Shown here piece after piece: positions 3,802 through 24,191 of a stretch of 55,881 nucleotides of DNA; position 1 is the stretch's first letter, and each line of letters opens with the position of its first letter. The notes below the pieces were generated by a model. The model was not told the origin of the DNA and made no database searches. It saw only the letters and a program-made list of their open reading frames with translations. The stretch is from contig JAHEEV010000017.1 in NCBI GenBank assembly GCA_024640505.1, forward strand, positions 1 through 55,881, written 5' to 3'. Both the position numbers and the translations under genes were made by a program. Source of the DNA: Halieaceae bacterium. Its GTDB lineage: Bacteria; Pseudomonadota; Gammaproteobacteria; Pseudomonadales; Halieaceae.

Positions 3802-5727
3802 TCAACGCCGGAGATTGAGCTGCGCTTCAAGCAGTATCGGCTGTCCCAACCGCTCACCGATCATCCGCTTCAGCGCATCGACGTGCGTCTTGTCCAGTTG
3901 CTCCGGCGCACTGAGCACGACCCGCACGAGATGTGGCTCACCCACGGACACCTGGGTATCGCCTACCTGTACGCGCAGACCGGCCAATTCCACCTCCCCG
4001 GTGGGAATCTGTTCCATAATCCGGTCTCGCTCCACCAGGTGAGCGAAGGTGATATACAGTGGCGCGCTGATCACCAGCATGAGGACGAGGGTGATTCCGA
4101 GACCTGTCCGCGCTCGCTTGAAGGGCGCAAACCCCATTACCAGGAAGGTCGCGCTCGCCGCGAGCGCGATACCCACCAGGTTGGTGCTCAGTAACAGCAG
4201 GGCGCCCCGGGCCATATCCCAGTCCCCCCACCCGAGACCAATACCGGCCACGCCGAGAGGCGGCACCAGGGCCACCGCGATGGCTACGCCCGCCAGGCTC
4301 CGGGCGACTTCCTCCTTGGCGTGGGCATAGGCGCCCGCCATACCGGAGACCACCGCCACCAGAAGGTCGAGCAACGTGGGTGACATGCGGGCCCGCATCT
4401 CCAGCGTGGGTATCTCCAGGGGCATGGCCCAGGCCAGCAGAATGCCGCAGCCCAACCCCCAGGCGATACCGACCAGCAGGGTGCGCAGGGAATTACGGAT
4501 CAGGGTAGGCTCTGTACGGGCAAGGCCCATGGCCAGTGAGATCACCGGTGACATCAGGGGCGCCAGTATCATGGCGCCAATGATGACCGGCGCCGAGTTG
4601 GCATAAAGACCGGTCAGGGCCAGCAGCACGCTGAGCACCATCAGGACCTGGTAGGAGGGTGTCAGTGCGGCACTTTCCCGCAGGGAGACGAACAGGTCGC
4701 GGTATTCTTCCTCGGACGCGTGACTGAACAGGGGCAGGTGTTTGCCCACCAGCGACCGCGCCGCCTCGTCCTGGGGCACGTGATTAAGCTTTACCGTCTC
4801 CTTGTCGGAAACCGCCTGGGTCTCCTGCCTGGGGATCAGCGCCAGTCCGGGCAGCAACCTGAGCCGCTGCTCGAGAATTTTCAGCTCGATCTCCTCACCA
4901 TGTACCGGCTTGCCGTCAACGAGGTATTCACACCCACCGGGAGCTTCCAGCTGCAGCTGGCTGGTCTGGATGAGGCCGACGGAGTTCGGCACGCTGGACA
5001 GGCTGATACGGCGCGGCAGTGGCAGACGCAGCATGAACCAGAGGTAACTGAATATGCTGCGCGGGGCCAGGGCCAGCAGCGTCAGCCGGCCATCGGAAAT
5101 GCTCACGTCGTCACTGAAATTACGCCCCAGGACCGAACTCTGGGTATGACTCAGGGCGACCATGCCGATGGCCGCCAGGTTGATCTTGCGCTCCTTGGCG
5201 GTCGTCAGGCGGTAGTGTTTGAGGTGCAGCTTGCCAAGGCCCCGAAGAGCGCCAGTGAAAAAGCTGCGCCGTGTCTGGGGTCGGTTGATGTCATAGGGCC
5301 GCAGGGCCAATACCCGCCCGATCACGACCGAGGAGAAGACCAGCTCGTCGTTGCAGGTCAGGACATCCGCCGCGATCGGCGCAGCCGTCAGATAATGTCG
5401 CAGTAGCGACGACGCCTTGCCCTTGACCCCGAGGGCGCCATTGGCACTGGGCGCTTCGGGATGGGGCAGCAATCCAATCTCCCACTCCCTTTCCAGCGCG
5501 AGCCCTGCCAGGTCCCGGATCTGCTCATCCCCCAGGCAGAGCAGCACCCGCGCCCCGGTCGGGAGCGCCTCGCGCTCACTCCAAGAGACCGCCGTGAAGA
5601 CAATATCGGGGACTTCTTGCGCCAGAGCGGCCGGCTCCAGGGTGGCATCATGCAGTACGTAAAGGTGGGGATGCGGGCCGCTCCCTTCATCCTGCTTTTT
5701 GCCGGACCGTTCGGATCCGTTTCCCAT
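3802..5727 (-). CDS. DUF389 (TIGR00341) membrane protein with lipid-kinase-like N-terminus
   Basis: This 641-residue protein has two parts. Residues about 340-580 form the DUF389 hydrophobic domain, with at least six membrane segments including SAPVIIGAMILAPLMSPVIS and AIAVALVPPLGVAGIG, both conserved marks of this family of unknown function. The first ~300 residues resemble a diacylglycerol/sphingosine-kinase fold of the YegS type: VLLCLGDEQI stands where active kinases have GGDGT, followed by a beta-rich half (FSDDVSISDGRLTLLAL) and a final YLVDGKPV segment. The missing glycine-rich motif suggests the domain is not an active kinase. The short C-terminus is predicted soluble. It lies five bases downstream of the hydrolase gene on the same strand. 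The function is unknown; the N-terminal assignment is an inference from pattern. Confidence 0.8.
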   Translation of the reverse strand: MGNGSERSGKKQDEGSGPHPHLYVLHDATLEPAALAQEVPDIVFTAVSWSEREALPTGARVLLCLGDEQIRDLAGLALEREWEIGLLPHPEAPSANGALGVKGKASSLLRHYLTAAPIAADVLTCNDELVFSSVVIGRVLALRPYDINRPQTRRSFFTGALRGLGKLHLKHYRLTTAKERKINLAAIGMVALSHTQSSVLGRNFSDDVSISDGRLTLLALAPRSIFSYLWFMLRLPLPRRISLSSVPNSVGLIQTSQLQLEAPGGCEYLVDGKPVHGEEIELKILEQRLRLLPGLALIPRQETQAVSDKETVKLNHVPQDEAARSLVGKHLPLFSHASEEEYRDLFVSLRESAALTPSYQVLMVLSVLLALTGLYANSAPVIIGAMILAPLMSPVISLAMGLARTEPTLIRNSLRTLLVGIAWGLGCGILLAWAMPLEIPTLEMRARMSPTLLDLLVAVVSGMAGAYAHAKEEVARSLAGVAIAVALVPPLGVAGIGLGWGDWDMARGALLLLSTNLVGIALAASATFLVMGFAPFKRARTGLGITLVLMLVISAPLYITFAHLVERDRIMEQIPTGEVELAGLRVQVGDTQVSVGEPHLVRVVLSAPEQLDKTHVDALKRMIGERLGQPILLEAQLNLRR

Positions 5728-6617: not shown

Positions 6618-7412
6618 TTAAGTGTCCGCATTCTCTCGCAGGGTCGCACGGACACGGGCTAGGATTGCAGCCCCTTCCTGCTCAACTTCGTGAGAGAGCT
6701 TTGCGAGCACTTCGCGTGTCTCGTTATCCGTCTCCGAATCAAGGTCGGCGGTCAATGCCCGCAACAGACCCCGATGCACCACCGTGTCGTGCCAGTCGCC
6801 CAGCTCCGCCTGCAGGCGTTTGCACTGCTGCAACATGGCCTGTGACCCGGGCTGCGGCGAATCTCCCGTCGCACTTTCGAGTTGATAACGAAGCTCTTTG
6901 ACCGCTATGCGTAACTTGTGCCAGCTCTTGTCATCGTCATGCGACAGGGCCCGCCGTGCGGCAGTGGCAAGTCGTTGTTCACCCCGGCCCATATCCTGCG
7001 GTTCGCGCGAAGGGTGGAGGCTTTCGAAATTCGCATCGCGGGCGTACTGCTTCCACTCCCTGACGGCCCGCGACCACTTTTTTGACCGCAGCATATGTCG
7101 CACCCGTCGATGCGACCGGCTGCGCCGGGCTTCCGCGAACGGCTGGATATGCCTGAACTGCGTCCTTTTCGTTGTTTTACGGAGTCTGGTGTAAAACGTG
7201 TCCCAGTCGCGTGCATCATTGGTCGCGTCAGCCATGCGGCCCAGTTCCCGCCGCAGTCGAGCCGCTTCATCATCCGTATGCTGCTTAAGAATACTGCGTA
7301 TCCGACGCAGGGTTATCCGCAGCTTGTGCAAGTCCTCGTCATTGTAGTCTAGCAACAACGCCCGGCGTTTTGACTTGAGCCGACGGGATAACTTCTTGAC
7401 GGCAGGAGACAT
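6618..7412 (-). CDS. CHAD domain protein, probable polyphosphate binder
   Basis: The 264-residue protein is almost entirely a CHAD domain: an all-helical repeat with conserved histidines and many basic residues. The two paired motifs HKLRITLRRIRSIL (near residue 30) and HKLRIAVKELRYQLE (near 165) are diagnostic, along with RDWDTFYTRLRK and LQAELGDWHD. CHAD domains are known to bind inorganic polyphosphate through the positively charged surface. No CYTH triphosphatase domain is fused here. It is the last recognisable phosphate-related gene of the second pst cluster, 61 bases after the pstB-like gene, which suggests that imported phosphate is linked to polyphosphate granules. Confidence 0.88.
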   Translation of the reverse strand: MSPAVKKLSRRLKSKRRALLLDYNDEDLHKLRITLRRIRSILKQHTDDEAARLRRELGRMADATNDARDWDTFYTRLRKTTKRTQFRHIQPFAEARRSRSHRRVRHMLRSKKWSRAVREWKQYARDANFESLHPSREPQDMGRGEQRLATAARRALSHDDDKSWHKLRIAVKELRYQLESATGDSPQPGSQAMLQQCKRLQAELGDWHDTVVHRGLLRALTADLDSETDNETREVLAKLSHEVEQEGAAILARVRATLRENADT

Positions 7413-7473: not shown

Positions 7474-8256
7474 TCAGCCATAGCGCCCTTCTATGTAGTC
7501 TGCCGTCTCCTGCTGGGCAGGGGTGACGAACATTGATTCTGTCGGAGAGTGCTCGATGACCTTGCCCATCAGCATGAAGATACACTCCTCGCTCGCCCTG
7601 CGGGCCTGGGCCATGTTATGCGTGACAATCAGGATGGTGTACTTCTCACGCAGTTCCCAGATCAGTTCCTCCACCGCCTCGGTCCCCTTGGGGTCCAGCG
7701 CGGAGCAGGGTTCGTCCATCAGCAATACCCCGGGTTTGACCGGCAGCAGGCGGGCAATACACAGCTTCTGCTGCTCTTCCAGGGAAAGGTCAGTCGCCTT
7801 GCGGTTCAACTTGTCCTTTACCTGATCCCAAAGCAGCACCTGCTGCAGGGCATCCTCGACGATTCCATCCAGTTCACTGCGTGGCGTGCGCCTCTTTTCG
7901 GAGTGCAGGTTGTAACCGAACAGTACGTTATCCCGGATTGAGATGGGCAACGGGTTAGGGCGCTGGAATACCATACCAATCTGCTTGCGCACCTGGACGA
8001 GTTCGACATCCTCGTCGTAGATATTCTTGCCCATGACCTCGATAGAACCGTCTATACGCACATAACCAAGGCGCTCATTGATACGGTTGACGCTGCGCAG
8101 CAGAGTTGACTTGCCGCAGCCCGAGGGCCCGATCAGCGAAGTTATAATCCCCTGCTTGATCTCCAGACTGACATCGAACAGGGCCTGGAAAGTCCCATAC
8201 CAGAGGTTCAGGTCGCGGGTGCGGATTGCCGCCGGGCGCTTATCTGTCTGCATCAA
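7474..8256 (-). CDS. PstB-like ATPase subunit A of second Pst system, degenerate signature motif
   Basis: A 260-residue ABC ATPase of the PstB family. Its Walker A (GPSGCGKST, 43-51), Q-loop (VFQRPNPLP, Q98), Walker B (LLMDEP, 178-183) and switch histidine (VTHNM, H213) are all intact. The signature motif, which in PstB is LSGGQQQR, is instead LSLEEQQK (157-164): both glycines are lost. It overlaps the next ATPase gene by four bases (8253-8256), so the two are translationally coupled. The partner has the reverse pattern: intact LSGGQ but altered Walker B, Q-loop and H-loop. A heterodimer would therefore form one normal and one dead ATP site. The conserved C-terminus TADYIEGRYG is typical of PstB. 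Confidence 0.88.
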   Translation of the reverse strand: MMQTDKRPAAIRTRDLNLWYGTFQALFDVSLEIKQGIITSLIGPSGCGKSTLLRSVNRINERLGYVRIDGSIEVMGKNIYDEDVELVQVRKQIGMVFQRPNPLPISIRDNVLFGYNLHSEKRRTPRSELDGIVEDALQQVLLWDQVKDKLNRKATDLSLEEQQKLCIARLLPVKPGVLLMDEPCSALDPKGTEAVEELIWELREKYTILIVTHNMAQARRASEECIFMLMGKVIEHSPTESMFVTPAQQETADYIEGRYG

Positions 8257-9047
8257 CCGAACCTGCCCTCGATATAGTCGGTCGTGCGCTGGTCCTGCGC
8301 GCCACCGGTGAACAGGGTTGCAGTGTCCCCGACCTCCACGCAGCTTCCCTGCAGGAAAAATGCGGTACGGTCCGCCAGCCGGTTGGCCTGCTGCACCAGG
8401 TTGGTTACCAGGATGATCGTCATCTCCTGTCTCAATTCCTTGAGTACATCCTCGATCCGCATGGTGGTCACCGGGTCGACGGCAATGGAGAATTCGTCAA
8501 GCATCAGCAGGGTTGGCTCCTGCGACAGGGCACGCGCAATGGTCAGGCGTTGCTGCTGTCCACCCGACAGCAGGCTGCCGAGAGAGTCCAGGCGATCCTT
8601 GACCTCGTCCCACAGGGCGGCGCGCTCCAGGCAGCGCTCGACGATCACATCCAGGTCCTGGCGGGCCTTTATTCCGCGCAGTCGGGGGGCCAGCGCCACG
8701 TTGTCGTAGATGGTCATGGGCAGGCCGACCGGCAGGGGGAACACCACACCGATGGCAGAACGCAGGGCGTAGACGTTTTTCAGCGTCTGCACATCCTGGC
8801 CACAGAACCTGATCTCTCCCTGCACTCCCATGCCGGCGGTAAACATGTCCATGCGATTGATAGCCTTGAGGAAGGATGTTTTTCCCGCATTGGCCGGTCC
8901 GATGATGCCGAAAATCTCATTTTCACGGATATCCAGGTTGACGCCGCTGAGCGCCGGGACGCCACCATAGCTGATGGTGAGATCCTTTACAGTGAGGATC
9001 TGCCCTGAAACAGATTCCTCCGCGGCCTGCCCGGGTTGCACTACCAT
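8253..9047 (-). CDS. PstB-like ATPase subunit B of second Pst system, degenerate catalytic motifs
   Basis: A 264-residue PstB paralogue. The signature LSGGQQQR (160-167) is intact. However, the Walker A is GPANAGKTS (50-58), the Q-loop glutamine is replaced by proline (VVFPLPVGLP, P104), Walker B reads LMLDEFSIAVDP instead of [11 protein letters not shown], and the switch histidine is asparagine (VTNLVQQ, N216). The C-terminus TTDYIEGRFG is PstB-like. It overlaps the pstA-like gene upstream by seven bases and the other ATPase downstream by four. These losses complement those of its neighbour and point to an asymmetric heterodimer with this subunit supplying the working signature motif. Adjacent pstB duplicates are known in Firmicutes (pstBA/pstBB), so pairing itself is not unique. 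Confidence 0.88.
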   Translation of the reverse strand: MVVQPGQAAEESVSGQILTVKDLTISYGGVPALSGVNLDIRENEIFGIIGPANAGKTSFLKAINRMDMFTAGMGVQGEIRFCGQDVQTLKNVYALRSAIGVVFPLPVGLPMTIYDNVALAPRLRGIKARQDLDVIVERCLERAALWDEVKDRLDSLGSLLSGGQQQRLTIARALSQEPTLLMLDEFSIAVDPVTTMRIEDVLKELRQEMTIILVTNLVQQANRLADRTAFFLQGSCVEVGDTATLFTGGAQDQRTTDYIEGRFG

Positions 9048-9910
9048 TTCTTGCGCCCCCGAAGATACATTCGGAACGCGATGGAGATACTGTTCATCAA
9101 CAGCACCATGCCGATGAGTACCAGAGCCACCCCATAGGGTAACTCGTCCGGGACGCCGGGCACCTGGGTGGCGACGACGAAGAGATGCAGTGACAGGGCC
9201 ATGGTCTGGTCGAAGACGCCCTGGGGCAGAAAAGGTGTAAAAAATACAGCGCCGGTGAACATAATGGGGGCCGTCTCCCCCGTGGTGCGCGAAACTTCAA
9301 GGATCACGCCGGTCAGTATCCCGCTGACCGAGTTGGGCAGCACCACCCGGCGTATCGTCTGCCAACGGGTGGCACCCATACTCCAGCACGCTTCCCTGAA
9401 GGCCTGGGGCACCGCCATCAGGGACTCCCGGGTGGAGACGATCACCACGGGCAGGGTCATGATGGCCAGGGTAAGGCTGGCCGCCAGTATACTCGTGCCA
9501 AAACCGAAGAAAACCACGAATGCGCCAACACCGAACAGCGCGTGCACGATGGAGGGCACGCCCGCCAGATTGATGATGGCCAGGTTGATGATTCGTGTGA
9601 ACCAGTTGTCCGACGCATACTCGCTGAGGTAAATCGCGGCGGCAATGCCAATGGGTACCGACACCAGCAAGGCAACACCCACCAGCCATACGGTTCCCAG
9701 CAGCGCGGGAAAGACGCCTCCCGCGGTCATACCGTCAGTGGGGGCGGTGAACAGGAAATCGATAGACAGTACGGGCCCACCCTTGTAGATCAACATCCCG
9801 AGGATCACCAGTACGGGCAGGATCAGCAGCAGTGTCATCGTCAGGAACAAAAGACGAAACAGCCCCTGGACTTTCTTGTCGCGCACATTCAGTGCGGTTT
9901 CTCTAAACAT
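9041..9910 (-). CDS. pstA: PstA-like permease of second Pst system
   Basis: A 289-residue inner-membrane permease with about six transmembrane segments, beginning with LFLTMTLLLILPVLVILGML. The ABC-coupling EAA loop is visible as FREACWSMGATRWQTIRRVVLP, and the family marks AAIYLSEYA, INLAGVPSIVHALFG and SRTTGETAPIMFTG are present. It lacks the large periplasmic insertion of the PstA in the first cluster (429 residues), so it is the compact form. The start is the ATG at 9910, four bases after the pstC stop; an upstream extension to 10054 would lie inside pstC in another frame. It transports the ligand together with the PstC-like protein. Confidence 0.9.
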   Translation of the reverse strand: MFRETALNVRDKKVQGLFRLLFLTMTLLLILPVLVILGMLIYKGGPVLSIDFLFTAPTDGMTAGGVFPALLGTVWLVGVALLVSVPIGIAAAIYLSEYASDNWFTRIINLAIINLAGVPSIVHALFGVGAFVVFFGFGTSILAASLTLAIMTLPVVIVSTRESLMAVPQAFREACWSMGATRWQTIRRVVLPNSVSGILTGVILEVSRTTGETAPIMFTGAVFFTPFLPQGVFDQTMALSLHLFVVATQVPGVPDELPYGVALVLIGMVLLMNSISIAFRMYLRGRKKW

Positions 9911-9914
9911 CGAG

Positions 9915-10829
9915 CTAGCCCTTGCGCACGCCGCGCACCACCAGGTCAGCGGTGAGGTTAATAACAAACGTGATGACGAACAGGAATATACCGATGGTGA
10001 ACAGGGCCTGGTAGTGATCTGACCCCACCGCCGTCTCCCCCAGTTCCGCCGCAATAGTCGCTGTCAGAGCCCGCACCGAATCAAACACGCTATCGGGGAT
10101 ATTGACCGAGTGCCCGGTGGCCAGCAGGACCGCCATGGTTTCACCAAAGCCCCGGCCCACGCCAAGCAGCACTGCCCCCAGCAGCCCGTTTTTGGCCGCC
10201 GGCAGCACAACCTTGAAAATCACCTGCCAGCGGGTGGCGCCCATGGCCTCGGCGGCCTCACGGTAGCGATCGGGAACGGCCTTCAGGGCATCTTCGGCGA
10301 TCGAAGTCATGATCGGGGCGGTCATCAGCCCGAGGATGATCCCTGCATTGAGCACGGTGAGCCCCACAGGAACGTCGAACAGGTCGATGATGATGGGATT
10401 CATGATAGTCAGGCCGATGAAGCCCCACACGACCGACGGAATGGCCGCCAGCAATTCCACCAGAATTTTGAGTAACTCGCGCGTCTTGCCGGTGGCAAAC
10501 TCGCCGACGAAAATTGCGGCACCGAGTGAGAACGGGATCGCCACTATCAGTGCCAGCCCGGTAACGCTGGCCGTGCCGGCAATCAGAGCCAGTATCCCGT
10601 ACTCCGGCGCGTCTTCATCGCTGGGCTCCCAGTAGGGTGAGGTGAAAAACTCCACCGGATCCATCGTGTTCAGGATGAAACCGAAGCCTTCCTTGGTAAT
10701 GAAAACGAATATGCCGATAATAAAAACTATGGCCGATATTCCGCCGAAAAACACCACCAGCTGAACCAGTTTGTCGATATACCAGTCACGGTTACGGCGA
10801 TCGAAATCCTGTGTCGCAATATCACTCAT
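9915..10829 (-). CDS. pstC: PstC-like permease of second Pst system
   Basis: A 304-residue permease with an N-terminal cytoplasmic tail followed by a first membrane segment (LVVFFGGISAIVFIIGIFVFI) and five more. The EAA loop YREAAEAMGATRWQVIFKVVLP and the PstC marks ISFLGAAIFVGEFA-like segment, LLAAIPSVVWGFIGL and GVGRGFGETMAVLLATG are present. I chose the ATG at 10829 (MSDIATQDF), preceded by a GGAA ribosome-binding site; an ATG nine codons upstream is possible. It lies directly after the PhoU-fusion gene and four bases before pstA. Confidence 0.9.
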   Translation of the reverse strand: MSDIATQDFDRRNRDWYIDKLVQLVVFFGGISAIVFIIGIFVFITKEGFGFILNTMDPVEFFTSPYWEPSDEDAPEYGILALIAGTASVTGLALIVAIPFSLGAAIFVGEFATGKTRELLKILVELLAAIPSVVWGFIGLTIMNPIIIDLFDVPVGLTVLNAGIILGLMTAPIMTSIAEDALKAVPDRYREAAEAMGATRWQVIFKVVLPAAKNGLLGAVLLGVGRGFGETMAVLLATGHSVNIPDSVFDSVRALTATIAAELGETAVGSDHYQALFTIGIFLFVITFVINLTADLVVRGVRKG

Positions 10830-10845
10830 CGTGATTCCGGCCCCA

Positions 10846-11931
10846 CTATGGGGCATCCTGTCCGCGCAGCAGTTTCATCAGCTCGGCTATCCGCGAGCTC
10901 AACTCCCTATACATGACCTTGAGCGTCGCTTCATCCGGTGACCGGCCCGGGAGCAGGCTGTCGGCCCCGATGTTCCACTCAAGTCCTGCCGTATGAAAAG
11001 GCAGTTGCGGAAGATAGTCCTTGACGCTGCCTTGCAGGCTGATCACCAGGTGCAGTTCCGCCAATTCGTGCTCGGTAAAGTCAATCGGCTCCGGGCTGGC
11101 TGAGCCGATATCCACACCCTTTCCCTGGAGAAATGCCGCGGTTGCCGGATCGATCTGTACCGCGGGCTGCTGACCTGCGCTGCGATAGCTGCCGCTACCC
11201 GGAAAGGCTTTGCGTGCCAGGGCCTCGGCCATCTGGCTGGCGCAGGAATTGTCCCGGTCGATAAAGAGGATATTGTAGACCTTGGGCGCTTTGGTCTGGC
11301 CAGTCACCGCGAAGATGGTGTCTTCACACAGGTTCTTGGCCTGATCTGCCGCGCGTTTCAGGTGGGTGAAGACCGTAAAAGTGGTCAACAGGGGTTTCGC
11401 GCTGGACTTCTCGGGATTGGCCATCAGCTCGGCGTAGATCCCGTCCAGGTCGAATTCCATCTCCCGCTCCAGCACCATGGTGCCGCGGGCGAGCTCCGCA
11501 TTGAGGTCATTGAAGGCCGTGATGGCCTGGTCGACCATGACCTTGACCTCGCTGCTGAATCGCTCCAGTTCATGCGCCATGTGACCGCTGGGCGGCTCGG
11601 ACAGCTGCTCGGACGCGCGGGCAATAGTGACCGCGTAGTCCCCTATCCGCTCCAGGGCGATGTTGGCCCGTATAACCGAAGACAGCAGGCGCAAGTGCCG
11701 CCCGCTGGGCAGGTGCACAGCGATGAACGCGTGGCAGGCCGCATCGATCTCGCGCATGGTGCGATTGACCGGGTGGTCCGCCAGGATGGTACTTGTGGCG
11801 AGTTCATGATCCCCTTTCTGGAGCGCCTGAACCGCATTGGCCAACGCCTGACCCACCTGCTCCGCCATGGCCGCGATACGTTTCCGCAGGGCGCCCATGT
11901 CCCGTTCCAGTCGTTCTTCGTAGTGGCTCAT
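10846..11931 (-). CDS. PhoU fused to an inactive low-molecular-weight phosphatase/ArsC-like domain
   Basis: A 361-residue two-domain protein. Residues 1-~215 form a PhoU fold: LRLLSSVIRANIALERIGDYAVTI (metal-binding LERIGD motif at 93-98), and a second repeat whose equivalent motif has decayed to LKRAADQAKN. Residues ~218-355 match the LMW protein tyrosine phosphatase/arsenate reductase fold, starting ILFIDRDNSCASQMAEALAR. The catalytic loop C-x5-R-S is broken: the nucleophile cysteine is D225 and the arginine is A231, while N228, C230 and S232 remain. The domain probably binds phosphate or a protein without catalysis. It sits between pstS-like and pstC-like genes, where a PhoU would be expected to control the transporter. 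Confidence 0.9.
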   Translation of the reverse strand: MSHYEERLERDMGALRKRIAAMAEQVGQALANAVQALQKGDHELATSTILADHPVNRTMREIDAACHAFIAVHLPSGRHLRLLSSVIRANIALERIGDYAVTIARASEQLSEPPSGHMAHELERFSSEVKVMVDQAITAFNDLNAELARGTMVLEREMEFDLDGIYAELMANPEKSSAKPLLTTFTVFTHLKRAADQAKNLCEDTIFAVTGQTKAPKVYNILFIDRDNSCASQMAEALARKAFPGSGSYRSAGQQPAVQIDPATAAFLQGKGVDIGSASPEPIDFTEHELAELHLVISLQGSVKDYLPQLPFHTAGLEWNIGADSLLPGRSPDEATLKVMYRELSSRIAELMKLLRGQDAP

Positions 11932-12024: not shown

Positions 12025-12900
12025 CTACTGGCAGCTAACTCGCCTTACCGGTGCGTAGCCTTTTTCCTGGATGATGCACTGCCCCGTGTCACTCATTACC
12101 CAGTCCAGGTACTGCTTGATATGGCCCTGGGGCTCGCCATTGGTATACATGAACAGCGGCCGGGCAATAGGGTAACTGCTATCCGAAGCGGTGGCCGGGG
12201 ATGGTGAAACACAGGTGGCCGGGTCGGATGCGGCGATACAGGCAAGTTTCACGTGATCGGTCGCATAGGCCAGGCCACTGTAACCGATGGCACAGGGTGT
12301 TTTCTCCACCAGGTCGACCACATCCTTGGAACCGTGCATGTCCAGTGTGCCCTGGCGGTATTTGCCCTTCTTGCCCAGCACAGCGTCTTTGAAATAGGCA
12401 TAAGTACCCGAGTTATTCTGGCGGCTCACCACAACGATCTGCTGGTTTTTGCAGCCTGGAACCTCGATACCCAGGTCGGTCCAGCGGGTAGCCTTGCCCC
12501 CGCGTCCATAGATGTCCCGCAGCTGCTCGATGGTCATGGTGTTTGCCGGATTGTCGCCGTGCAGGTAAACAGCCAGGGCGTCATAGCCGACGATGTGCTC
12601 CAGCGGCTCAATCCCGTTCTTGGCCGCCATATCGCTCTCCTTGGACTTGATTTGGCGGCTGGCATTGGCGATATCCACCGTGCCGTTGATCATGGCCGCT
12701 ATGCCGGTGCCTGAGCCCCCGCCGGAAACTGCCACGGCCACATCAGGTTCTACCGTCTGGTAGGCCTCGGCCCAGGCCTGGGCGACGTTTACAAGCGTAT
12801 CAGAGCCCTTGTTCTGGATTTCCGTACGGGCGACAACGGCGGAACTGAGCAGGGCCGCGCTCAGGCAGACCACCGGTAGGGTCAGGCGTGAAAGTTTCAT
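12025..12900 (-). CDS. PstS-like periplasmic phosphate-binding protein of second Pst system
   Basis: A 291-residue secreted binding protein with signal peptide MKLSRLTLPVVCLSAALLSSAVVA. PstS-type ligand loops are visible: IQNKGSDTLVNVAQAW, GGGSGTGIAAMINGTVDIANASR and RQNNSGTYAYFKDAVLG. It is shorter and only distantly similar to the PstS of the first cluster (380 residues). Three cysteine positions (CKNQQ, TPCAIGY, LACIAAS...ATC) may form disulfides. The ATG at 12900 is the only start that gives a signal peptide; the open frame extends upstream without features. It is first in the second transporter cluster, with a 93-base gap before phoU containing small inverted repeats. Specificity for phosphate is inferred from the family. 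Confidence 0.88.
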   Translation of the reverse strand: MKLSRLTLPVVCLSAALLSSAVVARTEIQNKGSDTLVNVAQAWAEAYQTVEPDVAVAVSGGGSGTGIAAMINGTVDIANASRQIKSKESDMAAKNGIEPLEHIVGYDALAVYLHGDNPANTMTIEQLRDIYGRGGKATRWTDLGIEVPGCKNQQIVVVSRQNNSGTYAYFKDAVLGKKGKYRQGTLDMHGSKDVVDLVEKTPCAIGYSGLAYATDHVKLACIAASDPATCVSPSPATASDSSYPIARPLFMYTNGEPQGHIKQYLDWVMSDTGQCIIQEKGYAPVRRVSCQ

Positions 12901-13210
12901 ATCAGAATCGAACTCCAGTGTGATTATTGCAGGCAGAAAAACCCAGTGGTGACGCAAACAGGACGCTACGCAAAGGCGCAACAAATTACAAGCCTTGCCT
13001 ATAAGTAGCAAAGGATGGCAGCGAACGCCAACGGAAGAGGTGCATTGGGAGCATTTTCGTGCGCCGCTCTGACAGAGATCAATATTTTCCCCCGCACCGC
13101 CCAAAATAAGCGAAGACTTGGCTGTCATACTGGGTTATGGTCTGCTCCCTGATATCGATTCAACCACCGGAGCCGCCGGCCGCTTTGGGTGTCAAGAGCC
13201 CGGATGAGTG
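12901..13210. promoter_or_regulatory. Divergent intergenic region between second pst cluster and phosphatase gene
   Basis: This 310-base stretch must hold promoters for the second pst cluster (minus) and the histidine phosphatase gene (plus). I looked on both strands for a two-half-site Pho box with a -10 ten bases away, as seen at phoB and pstS, and found only isolated half-sites (CTGTCAT at 13122-13128 on plus; TTGTAAT at 12991-12985 and CTGTCAG at 13075-13069 on minus). No gene is supported inside. Confidence 0.5.
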
Positions 13211-13846
13211 ATGCGCATTATCCTTGTCAGACATTGCAAAACGCTCTTTAACGTTTCAGGGCATATCATGGGGTGGGTGGACTCCCCACGGATCGAGAAC
13301 TGGCTCGAGGACATTCTCTTCATCGAGGCGGTTCTGCAGGAGAGAGACACACGGCCGGACCGGGTTTTCTCCAGCGCCCTGGGTCGCGCCCGAGACACGG
13401 CTGACTATATGTCCCGCAAACTGGGACTGGGCAGCGCGCGACACACGCAGCAACTCAATGAGATCAACTACGGCTCGCTGAGTGAAAAGCCCAAAAAGTG
13501 GGTGACAGCTCACTACCCTCTCCACAAGAAAGACCCGGACTTCGTCTATCCCCATGGCGAGAGTTTTCGCCAGATGCAGTCGCGCAGTGTCGCCTTTCTC
13601 CAGGACATCGCATTGCAGCATGGGTCGGAGACGATTCTCTGCGTGGTGCACGCCGGCGTCATCCGGGGCCTGCTGAGCCACTTCCTCCACCTGGACTTCG
13701 CCGCGCAGCTCAAGCGTCGCATATCTCACCGCTACATCGGCATTTTGGACTTTTCAGAGGCGACCTGCACGGCTTATGACGAGTGGGGCGAACCCTCGGG
13801 TTTCGTGGCAGACGGTGTGGTCACCCTCCCCCAACACGTCGTCTGA
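13211..13846 (+). CDS. Histidine phosphatase (phosphoglycerate-mutase-like)
   Basis: A 211-residue member of the histidine phosphatase superfamily. The catalytic histidine lies in IILVRHCKTLFN (RHG-type motif, here RHC), with the second arginine in VFSSALGRARDTAD, the acid region near LNEINYGSLSEKP, and the second histidine in CVVHAGVIRG. The length is near that of cofactor-dependent phosphoglycerate mutases and small-molecule phosphatases. A GTG one codon before the ATG is an alternative start. It is 20 bases upstream of a 2-phosphoglycerate-kinase-like gene on the same strand, so the pair may act on the same phosphoester. Exact substrate unknown. Confidence 0.87.
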   Translation: MRIILVRHCKTLFNVSGHIMGWVDSPRIENWLEDILFIEAVLQERDTRPDRVFSSALGRARDTADYMSRKLGLGSARHTQQLNEINYGSLSEKPKKWVTAHYPLHKKDPDFVYPHGESFRQMQSRSVAFLQDIALQHGSETILCVVHAGVIRGLLSHFLHLDFAAQLKRRISHRYIGILDFSEATCTAYDEWGEPSGFVADGVVTLPQHVV

Positions 13847-13866: not shown

Positions 13867-15165
13867 TTGGATTGCGGTCACGTTCCCGCCGGTGAAAAAC
13901 CCCAGGCCCCGATCAGGTATAATCTGCAGGTCGACACCCAGCTGACAGAGGTTCATCGCAAATCCGCCGTGGCGAAACTGTTGATCGAAGACAAGCAAGA
14001 GTCCACCCAGGTCCCGTTCCTGCGCGGTATATTGACCCGCTCGCTACAAAAATCGGGGCTTACTTTCCAGCAAGCCTACCACCTGGCAGCGGATGTACGG
14101 CTGGACCTCGAAGACAAAGACGTGGTCAGCAAGCTCGAACTGCATCGCCTGGTCTACCGCAAGCTCAAGAAAGAGTACGGGGAAAAAACTGCGGACCGTT
14201 ACCTCAGACCGTATGAAGCCCGACCACCAGTACAGGTGAGAGACCGCGCCGGTCGACTGACGCCCTTCTCCAGCGAACTGCACCGACGAGACCTGGAGAC
14301 TATCGGGCTGACCCTGTCGGAGTCACTCAAGGTGGCCATCAAGTTGCGACGGCATCTCTTCAGGCAGAAATCCGCCGAGATCAGTACCCAGTATATCGCT
14401 CGCATCACCTATGAAATCCTCGAGGAAACCCGCTCGCTGGGGCCTGCCGTAGCGCACCGGTGGCTGGTCTGGCGGGAGTTTGTACACAGTGGCCGCCCCC
14501 TGGTGCTGGTCATCGGTGGCACCACCGGCTGCGGCAAGAGCACCATTGCAACGGCGCTGGCCAACCGGCTGGAAATCGTTCGAATGCAGTCGACCGACCT
14601 CCTGCGTGAAGTCATGCGATCCATGCTGGCCAGCGAGGACTATCCCGAGTTACACACCTCTTCCTACGAGGCCTGGAAAGCCGTTACCGAGGGTGACGAC
14701 GACCTCGTGCTCCCCGCGGCGGGAAGTACGGTCGAAGAGGGTTTTCGGGCGCAGACCCGCCTGGTATCCAGGGCGGCGCGAGCGGTTATCGAGCGGGCCC
14801 TGCGGGAACGGGTCTCACTGATCATCGAGGGAGTTCACGCCCACCCCCGTCTGGCCAGGGATATGGTCGCCGACGATGCAGTCGTCGTGCATATCATGCT
14901 GGCGGTCCTGAAAAAAAGGAAACTCAAACAGCGTATTTCGGGTCGGGCCACCAAGGCAGTGCGGCGCCGTGCCCAGGAATACCTCAAGCACTTCGACGCG
15001 ATCTGGCAGCTGCAGAGTTATCTGCTGGACGAGGCCGACAAGACCCATACGCCGATTGTAATCAATGACGAGCGGGATGAGGTGGTGAGGGAGATCATGC
15101 GGACCCTGCTGGATGAGCTGTCAAACGCGACCGCTCCGTCCCCCAAGGTCGTATTTGCGGAGTAA
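13867..15165 (+). CDS. 2-phosphoglycerate-kinase-like P-loop kinase with N-terminal ATP-cone-like region
   Basis: This 432-residue protein has two related helical segments (about 35-115 and 130-215, the latter with RDLETIGLTLSESLKVAIKL), resembling the ATP-cone that precedes archaeal 2-phosphoglycerate kinase. A P-loop kinase domain follows, with Walker A GGTTGCGKST at 217-226 and the segment SLIIEGVHAHP later. Methanogen 2-phosphoglycerate kinase makes 2,3-bisphosphoglycerate, and plant LPA1 proteins of the same family affect phytic acid. The bacterial substrate is unknown. The open frame begins with TTG at 13867; conserved sequence starts near residue 35, where a GTG (13969) is another possible start, and TATAAT lies at 13918-13923 between the two. 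The start is therefore unsure. Confidence 0.82.
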   Translation: MDCGHVPAGEKPQAPIRYNLQVDTQLTEVHRKSAVAKLLIEDKQESTQVPFLRGILTRSLQKSGLTFQQAYHLAADVRLDLEDKDVVSKLELHRLVYRKLKKEYGEKTADRYLRPYEARPPVQVRDRAGRLTPFSSELHRRDLETIGLTLSESLKVAIKLRRHLFRQKSAEISTQYIARITYEILEETRSLGPAVAHRWLVWREFVHSGRPLVLVIGGTTGCGKSTIATALANRLEIVRMQSTDLLREVMRSMLASEDYPELHTSSYEAWKAVTEGDDDLVLPAAGSTVEEGFRAQTRLVSRAARAVIERALRERVSLIIEGVHAHPRLARDMVADDAVVVHIMLAVLKKRKLKQRISGRATKAVRRRAQEYLKHFDAIWQLQSYLLDEADKTHTPIVINDERDEVVREIMRTLLDELSNATAPSPKVVFAE

Positions 15166-15647: not shown

Positions 15648-16403
15648 TCAGCCGTCGACCTCTCCTCCCGTCTCCTTTCGATCGCCCGGCTCGAGGTATT
15701 TATCGCGGATTTCCTCCAGGCTGACGTGGCGCACATCGCTGCCTTTGACCAGATACACCACTTGCTCGCAGAGATTGACCGAGTGGTCCCCGATACGCTC
15801 CAGCGCCCGGGCGCACCAGTTGACGCGCAGCATACTCGACACCGCGCGAGGCTGCTCCATCATATGGGTGATCAGTAAACGCGTGAGGGCCTCGAATTCC
15901 CGGTCAATCTCCGGGTCCCTGGAGGCGATCTCGATGGCCGCCTTCACATCCAGCCGGGCAAATGCGTCCAGTGCGCCGTGCAGCATCTCCAGTACGCGCT
16001 CACCCAGGTGCTCTGGCTCTGCATAGTAGGATTGCTTTTCATGCCCGGCGGCCAGGTTCATGGCCAGCCGCCCTATTTTTTCGGCCTCATCCCCGATGCG
16101 CTCCAGGTCCGACGTCATGCGGATGATGGATACCAGCATTCGCAGGTCACTTGCGGCAGGCTGGCGTCTCGCCAGCGTATCCGTGCACTCCGCGCTGATT
16201 GCGACCTCCAGTTCATTCACCCGGTGATCGGAGGTTGCCACAGTTTCCGCCAACACCGCATCGCCGCGGACAAGGGCTGCCAGGGCATTCCTGCACTGTT
16301 CCTCCACCAGGCCACCCATTGCCAGTACCTTGCCACGAAGGTGCTCCAGTTCATCATTGTACTTCCGGGAAATGTGCTGGCCCAGGTGAAGGTCTTCTTC
16401 CAT
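15648..16403 (-). CDS. phoU: PhoU phosphate signalling protein (first pst cluster)
   Basis: A 251-residue PhoU with both tandem three-helix repeats and both metal-binding motifs intact: RRQPAASDLRMLVSIIRMTSDLERIGDEAEKI and CARALERIGDHSVNLCEQVVYLV (written here as landmarks near residues 78 and 202). PhoU connects the Pst transporter with PhoR and keeps the regulon off when phosphate is plentiful. It follows pstB by 22 bases and is the last gene of the pstSCAB-phoU cluster. A second full PhoU lies at 21359-22081, and a fused third at 10846-11931. The C-terminal GGEVDG tail is unusual but short. Confidence 0.95.
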   Translation of the reverse strand: MEEDLHLGQHISRKYNDELEHLRGKVLAMGGLVEEQCRNALAALVRGDAVLAETVATSDHRVNELEVAISAECTDTLARRQPAASDLRMLVSIIRMTSDLERIGDEAEKIGRLAMNLAAGHEKQSYYAEPEHLGERVLEMLHGALDAFARLDVKAAIEIASRDPEIDREFEALTRLLITHMMEQPRAVSSMLRVNWCARALERIGDHSVNLCEQVVYLVKGSDVRHVSLEEIRDKYLEPGDRKETGGEVDG

Positions 16404-16425
16404 CTTGCGTCGCTCCAGGGCTTTG

Positions 16426-17307
16426 TCAGCCGAAACGGCCTGTGATGTAATTCTCTGTCAGCTCGTGCTTGGGCATGGTAAATATCTCCTTGGTGTCGCC
16501 CACTTCGATCAGCTTACCCAGGTGGAAATAGGCGGTGCGCTCGGAGACCCTGGCGGCCTGTTGCATGGAATGAGTCACGATGGCGATGGTGTAATTTGCC
16601 TTGAGTTCGTCGATGAGTTCCTCGATTCGCGCGGTTGCTATCGGGTCCAACGCCGAGCAAGGCTCATCCATCAGGATGACTTCCGGGCTGACGGCAATAG
16701 CACGGGCGATACACAACCGCTGTTGCTGACCGCCCGACAGACCGGTGCCGGGCTTGTCGAGCTGATCCTTGACCTCGTCGAAGAGACTGGCCCGTCGCAG
16801 GCTGGTCTCCACGATTTCATCCATCTCTGCCTTGCTGTGAGCCAGGCCGTGAATCCGCGGACCATAGGCGACATTCTCATAGATCGACTTGGGAAAGGGA
16901 TTGGGTTTCTGGAAAACCATCCCGACCCGGGCACGCAGTAACACGGTATCCTGGTCACTTCCGTAGATGTTATCGCCGTCGAGAGAGATATCGCCCTGTA
17001 CGCGGCATATCGGGATGATATCGTTCATCCGGTTCAGCACACGCAGAAACGTGGATTTACCGCAGCCCGACGGACCGATCATGGCGATAACCTCGTTACC
17101 GCCTATATCGAGTGACACATCGAAGATCGCCTGTTTGTCATCATAGAACACGTTGACATTGCGGGCGGACATTTTCGCGTTGTCGACGAAAGGTTCACCA
17201 ATCGTCTGGTAATGGCTCACATGTTCATGCTCGCGGATATCCAGGTCTGCCCTCGCTGTGGCAGGGGAGGAAATCACACCGTCTGCGGTGACTGTCATCG
17301 AATTCAT
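16426..17307 (-). CDS. pstB: Phosphate ABC transporter ATPase PstB
   Basis: A 293-residue PstB with all motifs canonical: Walker [11 protein letters not shown]-loop [11 protein letters not shown], signature LSGGQQQR, Walker [13 protein letters not shown] and switch VTHSM. It begins with a ~45-residue extension (to about [10 protein letters not shown]) before the ABC fold, longer than in E. coli PstB (257 residues). The ATG at 17307 has an AAGGA site nine bases upstream; an ATG eight codons earlier is possible. It follows pstA by 33 bases. It powers phosphate import and serves as a standard against which the two degenerate PstB-like proteins can be compared. Confidence 0.96.
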
Positions 17308-17340
17308 TCTGTCAGGTCCTTGCCTATCCATTCAGTGCTT

Positions 17341-18630
17341 CTACTTGAGCTCAAAGCGCCTACGCAGATAAATGGCGAGCGCGTTCATCACGATCAAAAA
17401 ACCCATCAATACCATGATTGCCCCGGATGTCTTCTCTGTAAAGCCCCGCTCGGGACTGTCCGCCCAGAGAAAGACCTGCACGGGGAGCACGGTGGCGGGG
17501 TCGGTGACGCCCCCGGGAACATCCATAATGAAAGCAACCATCCCTATCATGAGGAGCGGGGCTGACTCACCGAGGGCCTGGGCCATGCCGATGATGGAGC
17601 CGGTGAGTATGCCCGGCATCGACACCGGCAGGACGTGGTGAAACACGGTCTGCAGCTTCGATGCCCCGACACCCAGTGCGGCTTCGCGGATCGACGGCGG
17701 CACCGCCTGAATGGCTGCCCTGGAGGTAATGATGATGGTAGGCAGCGTCATCAGTGAGAGGACAACCCCACCGACCAACGGTGCAGACCGGGGCAGTTCA
17801 AAGAAGTTGATAAAAACAGCCAGGCCGAGCAGGCCGAAAACGATAGACGGCACCGCCGCCAGGTTATTGATATTGATCTCGATCAGGTCGGTCAGGCGAT
17901 TGCGCGGTGCAAATTCTTCCAGATAAACAGCGGCGAACACGCCGACAGGAAAAGCGAGCAGGAAAGTGACCAGCAGGGTGAAAAAAGAGCCATACAGGGC
18001 GGCCTTGATTCCCGCCAGTTCCGGTTCCCGTGAGTCGCCCTCAGTGAAGAACAGGGTATTGAAACGCCCCTCCGTCCGGTCCCTGTCACGGAGTGAGTCC
18101 AGCCAGTCCATCTGTGTATTCTTCAGTTTCCGGTCGCCCTCGGGAAGGTCCCGGGAAACCTGTCCCTTGAGATAACTGGCGGCCTCTGCGTGAGCCAGCA
18201 GCCACTTATCGAATTTCTGCCCGATCAGTCCGGGGTCATCAACGACCGCATCACGCAGGTCGTACTCAGCGCCGATACTGATCAACCGGTAGAGCTGCCG
18301 CTTCTCCTTGCGATCGGTTACCTCGGGAAACATATCCCGCAGGCTGCTCCTGATGACCCCGAGGTAATCGGCCCTCAAAAGTTCAGCTTCACTGGCGTCA
18401 GGGGCCACCCCGAGGCGATCGGCGTCCAGATCCAGTGTGACTTTGATGTACTGCTGGGTAAACGCCGGCAGGCCCTTGCCGACGATGTCGGCCAGGAGGA
18501 TGAACAGGAAGACAAAACCCGTCATGACCGCAATACGGCCGTACCACTGGAAACGGCGTTCCCTGGCATACCGCTTTTTCAAGGATGCCTTTATCGCCGC
18601 GGTATTCTTGTACGAATTTGCACTACTCAT
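17341..18630 (-). CDS. pstA: Phosphate ABC transporter permease PstA (long form)
   Basis: A 429-residue PstA. After a cytoplasmic start and the first membrane helix (IAVMTGFVFLFILLADIVG) comes a periplasmic insertion of about 170 residues (roughly 60-225, rich in charged residues), as in the long PstA variant of many gammaproteobacteria (DUF3333-type). Five more membrane segments follow, with FAAVYLEEFAP, ININNLAAVPSIVFGLLGL and the EAA loop IREAALGVGASKLQTVFHHVLP. The ATG at 18630 overlaps the end of pstC by eight bases. The insertion may contact PstS or the sensor PhoR; that is inference. Confidence 0.95.
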   Translation of the reverse strand: MSSANSYKNTAAIKASLKKRYARERRFQWYGRIAVMTGFVFLFILLADIVGKGLPAFTQQYIKVTLDLDADRLGVAPDASEAELLRADYLGVIRSSLRDMFPEVTDRKEKRQLYRLISIGAEYDLRDAVVDDPGLIGQKFDKWLLAHAEAASYLKGQVSRDLPEGDRKLKNTQMDWLDSLRDRDRTEGRFNTLFFTEGDSREPELAGIKAALYGSFFTLLVTFLLAFPVGVFAAVYLEEFAPRNRLTDLIEININNLAAVPSIVFGLLGLAVFINFFELPRSAPLVGGVVLSLMTLPTIIITSRAAIQAVPPSIREAALGVGASKLQTVFHHVLPVSMPGILTGSIIGMAQALGESAPLLMIGMVAFIMDVPGGVTDPATVLPVQVFLWADSPERGFTEKTSGAIMVLMGFLIVMNALAIYLRRRFELK

Positions 18631-20011
18631 ACTGTTCCCGGTATTTCCTGACCACATACAAGGCGATGACATTGAGCAGCAACGTCACGAAAAAGAGCAC
18701 CAGCCCCAGGGCGAAGGCCGCCAGCGTCTTGGGGCTGTCAAACTCCTGGTCCCCGACGAGCAGGGTCACGATCTGTACGGTAATCGTGGTGACCGCCTCC
18801 AGCGGATTAATGGTGAGTTTGGCCGATAGCCCGGCCGCCATTACCACGATCATGGTTTCGCCAATCGCGCGCGAAACCGCAAGCAGAATTCCCCCGACGA
18901 TACCCGGAAGCGCTGCCGGCAGCAGCACCTTGCGGATGGTTTCATTCATGGTGGCCCCCATCCCCAGTGAGGCTTCCCGCATACTGTCGGGGACGGCGTT
19001 TATGATGTCATCGGAGAGTGACATGACAAACGGAATAATCATGATACCCATGACGATACCTGCGGCCAGCGCGCTTTCGGAGGCGACGCTCAGGCCGATG
19101 CTTTCGCCGAGGTTGCGAATGAAGGGCGCAACGGTCAACGCGGCGAAAAAGCCATAGACGACTGTCGGCACGCCGGCGAGAATCTCGAGTACGGGCTTGG
19201 TAAGGGAACGGAATCGCCTCGTGGCGTATTCAGACAGGTAAATGGCCGACATCAGGCCCACCGGCACCGCGATAAACATGGCCACCGTGGAGATAAGCAG
19301 GGTACCCACCAGCAGTGGCACAAAACCGAAGGAGCCCGATGCACCCACCTGGTCGATGCGGATAGCCATCTGCGGGCTCCACTGCAACCCGAACAGGAAG
19401 TCTGTCACCGGTATCGCGTGGAAAAAGCGGATGGCCTCGAAAAGGACCGACAGGACGATGCCGAGCGTGGTCAATACCGCGATGAACGAACACGCAAATA
19501 GAATCCAGGTGAAAATGCTTTCGACGTGGTTCCTGGCGCGCAGGGTCGGGCTTATTCGCTGCAGGGCCAGAAGGCAGCCGATAACGGCGACGAGAAACAC
19601 CAGGGAGGCCTTCATCACACGGCTGTCGGCCAGTAACTCCTGGTAGTAACCGGCAGCTGCTACCTGGGATTCGGAAAGTCCCAATGCGTCGGAACCACTC
19701 TGTGCAAAGCTGACAATCTGGTTGAAATACAGGCCCAGCTCACTCTCGGGTAACGCCTGGATCTCAGCGGGGAGCTGCGAGACGACCATATTGGTCAGAA
19801 CCCTGGACTCCAGGCCAACCCACAGGATCAGCACCAGCAGAGCGGGAAGACCTGCCCACAGCGCGGCCATGTAACCATAGTGCTTGGGCAGTGAGTGCAG
19901 GCCGTAGGCGCCGCCCTGCCCCACTGCCACCAGGTGGGAACGTTTGCGGCCCACGAAGAAGCTGATCGCGGCGAGCGCGACCAGGATCAGTAAGACTGTC
20001 GATGTCTGCAT
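18623..20011 (-). CDS. pstC: Phosphate ABC transporter permease PstC (long form)
   Basis: A 462-residue PstC, longer than the E. coli protein (319 residues). It starts with a membrane helix (TVLLILVALAAISFFVG) and has a second helix, then a periplasmic region around residues 75-130, before the conserved permease core: ATRRFRSLTKPVLEILAGVPTVVYGFFAAL, the EAA loop MREASLGMGATMNETIRKVLLP and AIGETMIVVMAAGL. It lies about 90 bases after pstS, with a hairpin between, and overlaps pstA. It forms the channel with PstA in the inner membrane. Confidence 0.95.
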   Translation of the reverse strand: MQTSTVLLILVALAAISFFVGRKRSHLVAVGQGGAYGLHSLPKHYGYMAALWAGLPALLVLILWVGLESRVLTNMVVSQLPAEIQALPESELGLYFNQIVSFAQSGSDALGLSESQVAAAGYYQELLADSRVMKASLVFLVAVIGCLLALQRISPTLRARNHVESIFTWILFACSFIAVLTTLGIVLSVLFEAIRFFHAIPVTDFLFGLQWSPQMAIRIDQVGASGSFGFVPLLVGTLLISTVAMFIAVPVGLMSAIYLSEYATRRFRSLTKPVLEILAGVPTVVYGFFAALTVAPFIRNLGESIGLSVASESALAAGIVMGIMIIPFVMSLSDDIINAVPDSMREASLGMGATMNETIRKVLLPAALPGIVGGILLAVSRAIGETMIVVMAAGLSAKLTINPLEAVTTITVQIVTLLVGDQEFDSPKTLAAFALGLVLFFVTLLLNVIALYVVRKYREQYE

Positions 20012-20039
20012 GGGTGTGTCGTTTCTCGGTTAACACAAA

Positions 20040-20061
20040 TGCGCCGCTCGATGGCGGCGCA
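20040..20061 (-). terminator. Hairpin between pstS and pstC, probable attenuator or RNA stabiliser
   Basis: TGCGCCGC (20040-20047) pairs perfectly with GCGGCGCA (20054-20061) around a six-base loop, an eight-pair GC-rich stem. On the minus (coding) strand it is followed by TTTGTGTT, only a partial T-run. Such stem-loops between binding-protein and permease genes commonly let the binding protein be made in excess by limiting read-through or protecting the upstream message. Confidence 0.65.
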
Positions 20062-20099
20062 CACTCCGGGCCAGGGCATAAAAACCAGGCTGGACTACA

Positions 20100-21242: not shown

Positions 21243-21277
21243 GTCCTGGACACTCCCTGAAAATGACTGGTGGGAAA

Positions 21278-21293
21278 CGGGGTATATACCCCG
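21278..21293. promoter_or_regulatory. Perfect 16-base palindrome in the pstS leader
   Basis: CGGGGTATATACCCCG reads identically on both strands. It lies about 15 bases downstream of the predicted pstS -10 (21313-21308) and 36 bases before the GTG start, so it falls near the transcription start or in the 5' leader. It could be bound by a dimeric repressor or fold into a small RNA hairpin. No ribosome-binding site is inside it. The binding protein is unknown. Confidence 0.5.
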
Positions 21294-21307
21294 GGATCCC
21301 GCCAAGG

Positions 21308-21341
21308 ATTCTATGTCCGGTTTGTTACCGCAATATGACAG
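21308..21341 (-). promoter_or_regulatory. Pho box and -10 promoter for pstS
   Basis: On the minus strand 21341-21324 reads CTGTCAT ATTG CGGTAAC: a perfect first half-site and a weaker second one with the standard four-base spacer. Exactly ten bases further is TAGAAT (21313-21308), a good -10. This matches the layout of the phoB promoter and that of PhoB class promoters, where the box replaces the -35. It lies between phoU (stop at 21359) and pstS. Confidence 0.75.
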
Positions 21342-21358
21342 CCCGCACGTTTCCTGTA

Positions 21359-23388: not shown

Positions 23389-23406
23389 CGGCTACGGTCC
23401 GCCGTA

Positions 23407-24157: not shown

Positions 24158-24191
24158 ATTAGATGAGCTAATTATGACAATTGAATGACAA
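24158..24191 (-). promoter_or_regulatory. Pho box and -10 promoter for phoB
   Basis: On the minus strand 24191-24174 reads TTGTCAT TCAA TTGTCAT, two identical half-sites with a four-base spacer, differing from the E. coli consensus only at the first base of each. Ten bases downstream is TCTAAT (24163-24158), a suitable -10. This is the best Pho box in the window and supports positive feedback of PhoB on its own cluster. The remaining bases up to korB (24192-24270) include a run of seven T on the minus strand but no convincing stem. Confidence 0.85.

Follow-up and report, generated by a model that had tools for sequence, protein, structure and literature searches.

The variant pst operon and its fusion protein

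The contig JAHEEV010000017.1 of a Halieaceae bacterium (assembly GCA_024640505.1), of which we analysed positions 1 to 55,881 (55,881 nucleotides, hereafter the window), carries on its reverse strand a variant pst operon in the order pstS, phoU fused to a pseudo-ArsC domain, pstC, pstA, pstB1 and pstB2. The pstS frame (12025–13128) encodes a PstS-like phosphate-binding protein that scores 241.6 bits against TIGR02136 and matches solved phosphate-binding proteins; translation probably begins at the ATG at 12900 (MKLSRL..., resembling a signal peptide by eye). The permease gene pstC (9915–10856; 280 bits against TIGR02138) shares 11 bases with the end of the fusion gene, and pstA (9041–10054; 260 bits against TIGR00974) overlaps pstC by 140 bases, its open reading frame probably being started too early. 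PstS, PstC and PstA all exceed the cut-offs of these family models, as a Pst importer should, and TIGR00972 is the best family for both PstB1 (8253–9047; 275.5 bits) and PstB2 (7474–8256; 328.2 bits). PstC and PstA align well with their E. coli counterparts of known structure, and among the functionally important positions PstC Arg237/Glu241 and PstA Arg220 are kept and PstA Arg170 is Val (numbers counted from alignments). The operon is predicted to act as a Pst importer, including the transport of phosphate.

The fusion gene (10846–11931, reverse strand) lies between pstS and pstC and encodes 361 amino acids, of which residues 1 to 212 are PhoU and residues ~217 to 356 form a domain with the fold of ArsC and low-molecular-weight protein tyrosine phosphatase (LMW-PTP). 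Such a fusion had been proposed from the letters of the sequence alone (hereafter the original prediction), and domain models and structure prediction bear it out. Pfam detects PhoU in two stretches (84 bits) and LMWPc at residues 221 to 305 (33 bits against a cut-off of 23.2), and NCBIfam TIGR02135 (phoU_full) is matched at 133.8 bits (cut-off 130.25), as is expected of a full-length, two-repeat PhoU. An AlphaFold2 model built from an 80-row alignment, from which one homologue containing X was omitted (L079), has a mean predicted local distance difference test score (pLDDT) of 92.4 and a predicted template modelling score of 0.86. In VIA-align comparisons the PhoU half superposes on P. aeruginosa PhoU (4q25; Z 29.9, 1.4 Å, 208 residues) and the C-terminal domain on the ArsC fold of pI258 (1lk0; Z 19.5, 1.7 Å, 130 residues), and Foldseek gives the same fold outcome. 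A predicted structure without an LMW-PTP fold, named beforehand as grounds for abandoning the original prediction, is therefore ruled out, the fold being predicted with high confidence. Searched against PDB sequences, a profile of the C-terminal domain has ArsC chains as its best matches (1jl3, E 1.4e-10), so that the domain is of the arsenate-reductase type rather than a phosphatase, and is nearer to thioredoxin-type ArsC than to LMW-PTP.

Conservation was assessed in 107 homologues, comprising 81 (from 80 loci plus L105) and a further 26 from genomes of other classes in the same phylum. The 80 loci, kept from 89 confirmed ones, come from a search with two short peptide patterns of the fusion family that is blind to distant fusions with an intact loop; the 26 are all the non-window places of the phylum search, 14 of them inspected with flanks and 12 as protein only. 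Excluded from the counts are duplicates (L024 and L106–L111) and L112, a 281-residue frame of genome G768 which gave the one ArsC-like C-terminal match with an intact loop and was rejected as a fusion for want of a PhoU junction; L101 was trimmed to its last 380 residues. The C-terminal domain stands behind PhoU in 107/107 homologues, save a few whose N-terminal parts are lost to contig ends; the joining is a real fusion and no chance event. Within the class (369 genomes) the fusion gives nine matches at E <= 1e-14, namely eight genomes plus G768, and PstB1 gives eight at E <= 1e-80, in the same eight genomes. Fusion loci also occur in metagenome-assembled genomes (MAGs) labelled as Acidobacteriota groups, Gemmatimonadaceae, Myxococcales and Planctomycetota, for which binning errors are possible. 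All five partners accompany the fusion in 54/80 loci and in 24 more some are absent, in each case at a contig end lying within 236 bases, leaving two exceptions. In one locus (L101, titled Planctomycetota) the fusion precedes pstS; outside the class, pstS lies before and pstC after the fusion in 14/14 loci inspected with flanks. No place covering 80% of the fusion query was found in 72,556 plasmid records.

The former catalytic loop and the PhoU half

In the window the C-x5-R-S loop is replaced by D225-x5-A231-S232, so that both nucleophile and anion-binding Arg are lost, just as originally predicted. Aligned to B. subtilis ArsC (1jl3), in the residue numbering of that protein, Cys10 falls on D225, Arg16 on A231, Cys82 on Q300 and Cys89 on L307 (positions counted). 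Of the 81 homologues, 78 have Asp at position 225, two Gly and one His, and of the 26, 25 have Asp and one Glu, which makes Asp in 103/107 and Cys in none. Arg is absent from position 231 throughout the 81 and present in one of the 26, two others having Lys. Neither the catalytic loop nor the redox Cys pair of thioredoxin-type ArsC is found: C-x5-R-[ST] occurs in 0/81 C-terminal domains, and Cys at 225, 300 or 307 in 0/107 homologues. The LMW-PTP combination of a C-x5-R-S loop and a DP general acid is equally missing, Pro occupying position 325 in 58/82 rows but being preceded by Asp in only 2/81. The domain thus shares with thioredoxin-type ArsC (pI258, B. subtilis) and LMW-PTP the fold, the loop Asn, the SAG motif and the Trp of the HW motif, but differs from them in having Asp for the nucleophilic Cys, in the loss of Arg and of both other redox Cys, and in its fusion to PhoU, and no enzyme is expected. 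An Asp in place of the catalytic Cys also characterizes pseudophosphatases, the second domains of some receptor protein tyrosine phosphatases having C-to-D loops and a regulatory role, although these are eukaryotic and of an unrelated fold.

A loss in this strain only is ruled out, Cys being kept in none of the 107 homologues, and the close relatives with an intact C-x5-R loop that would have pointed to one are absent from this set. In non-exhaustive scans there was no PhoU:LMWPc fusion with an intact loop among the matches listed for 140 genomes of the family, 390 of the order (E <= 1e-12), 369 of the class (E <= 1e-14) and 354 of the phylum (full-length profile, E <= 1e-43). Elsewhere the same genome encodes an LMW-PTP with an intact loop (L001, VCLGNICRS), and thus also has an ordinary enzyme of this fold. 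Judged by its residues, the loop is catalytically dead throughout the examined homologues while its Asp is held under constraint, because D225 is nearly fixed in the 81 homologues where position 231 takes 11 residue types. The conservation of the domain lends support, as a suggestion, to the binding or signalling role, without catalysis, that had been proposed for it. Three homologues from outside the class (L133, L138 and L141) have Lys, Arg and Lys, respectively, at the former Arg position, with Cys already replaced by Asp and the second PhoU metal motif kept. It is possible that they represent early stages of the losses in loop and motif.

Conserved residues around D225 could alternatively indicate that the domain has gained another activity, in which the loop D-x-[DE]-N would carry out metal-dependent phosphotransfer through its Asp, much as the loops of HAD or receiver domains do. 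Besides D225 itself, position 227 is acidic in 64/81 and 23/26 homologues and N228 is kept in 69/81 and 20/26. We consider such an activity very unlikely given that the domain has no other nearly invariant acid, that its only conserved Lys (K214 and K217, in the 81 homologues only) sit at the junction ahead of the first strand, that a Xanthomonadales/Lysobacterales group lacks both D227 and N228 (e.g. LDQPGSG), and that D225 is absent in 4/107 homologues. The opposite view, that this second pst operon is redundant and the C-terminal domain a passenger in decay, could draw on the divergence of the fusion, which is 37–59% identical to that of the window in 76/79 homologues as against ~70–90% for PstC, PstA and the PstBs in most loci, and on the full canonical Pst set next door, where phoB-phoR-phoU-pstS-pstC-pstA-pstB-phoU occupy 15648–24111 on the reverse strand (pstC, pstA and pstB named by similarity and sight). 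Relaxed constraint is nevertheless extremely improbable in view of the presence of the domain in every homologue, the conservation of W319 (107/107) and, among the 81, of P311 (80), F312 (78) and G357 (81), and the cohesion of the operon genes across classes.

It had also been proposed that the domain reads phosphate or arsenate. Here the prediction finds no support: with the positive charge of Arg lost (retained in 0/81 and 1/26 homologues) and Asp gained at the thiolate position in 103/107, an oxyanion in the pocket is disfavoured, and the dead pocket is unlikely to read phosphate or arsenate directly.

The PhoU half keeps its first metal motif (E94-x3-D98, within LERIGD), as predicted, and this motif is intact in 106/107 homologues (80/81 and 26/26), the exception (L096) being truncated by a contig end. 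The second motif (within LKRAAD), which had been called lost, is indeed altered in the window (K192-x3-D196) and most homologues, but the claim does not extend to the 18/107 in which it is intact. Among the 81 homologues it reads Lys-x3-Asp in 68 and intact [ED]-x3-D in 11; in the 26 from outside the class, Glu is kept in 25, Asp is changed to Asn in 19 and seven are intact. Since only one of the two E/D-x3-D motifs of PhoU is present in the window, we refer to the protein as a PhoU-type variant. Like other PhoU proteins (TIGR02135; 4q25, 1t72, 1sum) it is a two-repeat helical protein with an intact first motif and belongs to a pst operon, but it differs in its extra C-terminal domain, the usual loss of the second motif, the position of its gene between pstS and pstC, and its phylogeny: in a tree of 39 PhoU sequences, a hand-picked subset analysed by a quick method, one branch separates 19 fused from 20 canonical proteins with a Shimodaira–Hasegawa-like approximate likelihood ratio (SH-aLRT) of 100.

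Among the titles and abstract openings listed by one open-licence library for the fusion, tandem PstB, one-site ABC pairs, PstSCAB/PhoU structure and 2-phosphoglycerate kinase, none describes the fusion. One study admitted to its PhoU set only proteins with no additional Pfam domain (PMC13170248), and another reports that pst and phoU genes rise with arsenite/arsenate in a Thioalkalivibrio (PMC6620896).

Complementary motif losses in PstB1 and PstB2

The pair of ATPases, absent from the original prediction, is at least as unusual as the fusion. In PstB1 (65 rows) the Walker A Lys is invariant and LSGGQ is found in 65/65, and Walker B DE is kept in the protein of the window, but the Q-loop Gln is replaced by Pro (64/64) and the H-loop His by Asn (60/60 rows with letters). 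In PstB2 (58 rows) no row deviates in the Walker A Lys, Q-loop Gln or Walker B DE, and 57/57 rows with letters have the H-loop His, but the GG of LSGGQ is changed to Leu-Glu in 58/58, the signature in the window being LSLEE. By a simple pattern, all motifs are found in the window's own canonical PstB and in 7/9 others, one or two being missed by the pattern in the remaining two (L008 and L101). A tree of 42 PstB sequences, a hand-picked and quickly computed set like that for PhoU, places PstB1 and PstB2 each on one side of a branch (SH-aLRT 100).

In ABC transporters, one subunit contributes the Walker A and B motifs and the Q- and H-loops of an ATP site, and its partner contributes the signature (PMC7756269). 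The losses in two co-encoded nucleotide-binding domains are therefore complementary as well as conserved: if PstB1 and PstB2 pair, they all fall in one site and leave the other whole, which predicts a heterodimer with one ATP site that works and one that is dead. Enterococcus faecalis, too, has neighbouring pstB paralogues within a single pst operon; its tandem PstB1/PstB2 are treated in a study that does not discuss the Q-loop in its available excerpt (PMC12096839), whereas here each PstB has lost a complementary set of motifs. One consensus and one degenerate ATP site are also a feature of the asymmetric ABC transporters TM287/288, TAP and Pdr5, the second nucleotide-binding domain of Pdr5 having LNVEQ for LSGGQ; the review, in the part available, treats exporters, in contrast to the binding-protein-dependent Pst importer considered here (PMC7756269).

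A slow, one-site ATPase would also be compatible with a system that serves chiefly as a phosphate sensor (transceptor) and less as a bulk importer, the PhoU fusion reporting its state. The asymmetry of the ATPase motifs and the canonical importer and PhoBR in the same island fit this explanation, but we regard it as distinctly unlikely, given that ABC exporters in which one site is degenerate still transport (PMC7756269) and that PstC and PstA align so well with those of E. coli.

Regulation, neighbouring genes and a proposed role of the fusion

Sites resembling the Pho-box consensus CTGTCAT-N4-CTGTCAT were sought with up to three mismatches in the 71/80 loci with usable upstream DNA, start codons being guessed as the first in-frame ATG. 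They occur upstream of pstS in 23/71 loci against 2.9 expected from dinucleotide shuffles, related loci not being independent, and 21/23 are in the orientation of the operon. PhoB probably switches the operon on under phosphate starvation in a good part of its hosts. In the canonical island of the window, matches lie upstream of phoB (24174–24191, two mismatches) and of pstS (21324–21341, three mismatches), the total in the window being no higher than chance.

Upstream of the variant operon and on the forward strand is a gene for a 2-phosphoglycerate-kinase-like (2PGK-like) protein (13867–15165), which matches the PRK04220 and PRK12337 models below their cut-offs and has an ATP-cone match. Proteins of this kind (E <= 1e-30 to NF003259, none over its cut-off) are found in 8/8 class genomes with the operon as against 11/361 without it, a co-occurrence for which the Fisher test ignores shared ancestry, the eight genomes lying in six families. 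The gene is present in 24/80 loci and in seven of these lies 39–170 bases beyond the last pst gene and on its strand (stop-to-stop frames). An archaeal-type, ApgM-like phosphoglycerate mutase is encoded in 17/80 loci; in several hosts it lies between the 2PGK-like gene and pstS (L094:2834–4123, L090:6094–7344 and L056:2730–4049). The window has no ApgM gene and the rest of the genome only a weak match. The rice protein Lpa1, annotated as a 2-phosphoglycerate-kinase homologue, reportedly affects phytate, so that there is precedent for linking this family of kinases with the storage of phosphorus. Also on the forward strand is a histidine-phosphatase/phosphoglycerate-mutase superfamily protein (13208–13846) with a relative in 11/80 loci. 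Directly downstream of pstB2 lies a CHAD-domain protein (6618–7412, reverse strand), CHAD domains being linked to polyphosphate, and a DUF389 membrane protein of 641 residues is encoded near the island (3802–5727, reverse strand).

These phosphoglycerate-related genes bear on the idea that the dead domain senses a small molecule or oxyanion and signals phosphate, arsenate or a phosphorylated metabolite such as phosphoglycerate to the transporter. Relatives of the ArsC/LMW-PTP fold bind oxyanions, and both the co-occurrence of the 2PGK-like gene and the ApgM-like mutases would suit a phosphorylated ligand. The pocket would, however, be acidic, with Arg absent in 106/107 homologues and Asp for Cys in nearly all, and no conserved basic residue of the loop substitutes for Arg. 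A sensor is therefore unlikely, and is retained in consideration since the domain could bind a phosphorylated metabolite at another place.

The reading that we favour, with about an even chance of being right, is that the operon encodes a variant Pst importer driven by a one-site ATPase, in which the dead domain serves PhoU as a module for orientation or gating. PstB1 and PstB2 would pair, the hydrolytic site being made up of the Walker A and B motifs, Q-loop and H-loop of PstB2 and the LSGGQ of PstB1, and the second site would be dead, possibly holding ATP. E. coli PhoU interacts with PstB and PhoR (PMC4423584). PhoU is pseudo-symmetric, consisting of two similar bundles, and the symmetry of both PhoU and the PstB pair appears to be broken here, such that the fusion protein may dock in one orientation only. 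The dead ArsC domain would then be a docking or gating module that senses the state of the transporter without catalysis. A more elaborate version, which we put forward tentatively as a possible but not a probable one, is a single-site Pst importer of a class not described before, read by a symmetry-broken PhoU, with an intact metal-site half and an altered half whose dead ArsC domain would dock on the side of the degenerate site; together with the 2PGK-like enzyme it would form a phosphate-status module in which phosphoglycerate, rather than free phosphate, may be the intracellular signal.

Several points weigh against the favoured reading. Heterodimer and docking are both inferred, and PstB1 and PstB2 each score below the PstB equivalog cut-off (TIGR00972, 343.2). 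The variant pstS of the window has no upstream Pho box within three mismatches, its best candidate having four, which is common by chance, and a search of the whole window gives three matches against 3.9 expected. Among the 26 homologues from outside the class one keeps the loop Arg and seven the second metal motif, so that neither loss is definitive of the family. Finally, the two loci that lack partners away from contig ends are a Thiomargarita MAG (L083) with pstS, fusion and pstC, whose remaining 8 kb hold neither pstA nor pstB, and L042, with a broken pstA region (scaffold gap, frame breaks) and no pstB; either may be a fault of assembly, and L083 may otherwise be a reduced form.

The operon is a variant of the Pst system and not a new kind of system, apparently an undescribed version of a known transporter that is distinct and conserved in this bacterium and many relatives. 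It would be an unusual binding-protein-dependent importer in having a conserved dead ATP site, and its fusion protein would exemplify how a detoxification enzyme can be put to new use as a dead regulatory domain, attached to a transporter that can admit its former substrate. It has long been asked how PhoU reads out what state the Pst transporter is in, and the combination of an asymmetric PstB pair with an asymmetric PhoU offers a handle on which half touches which subunit.
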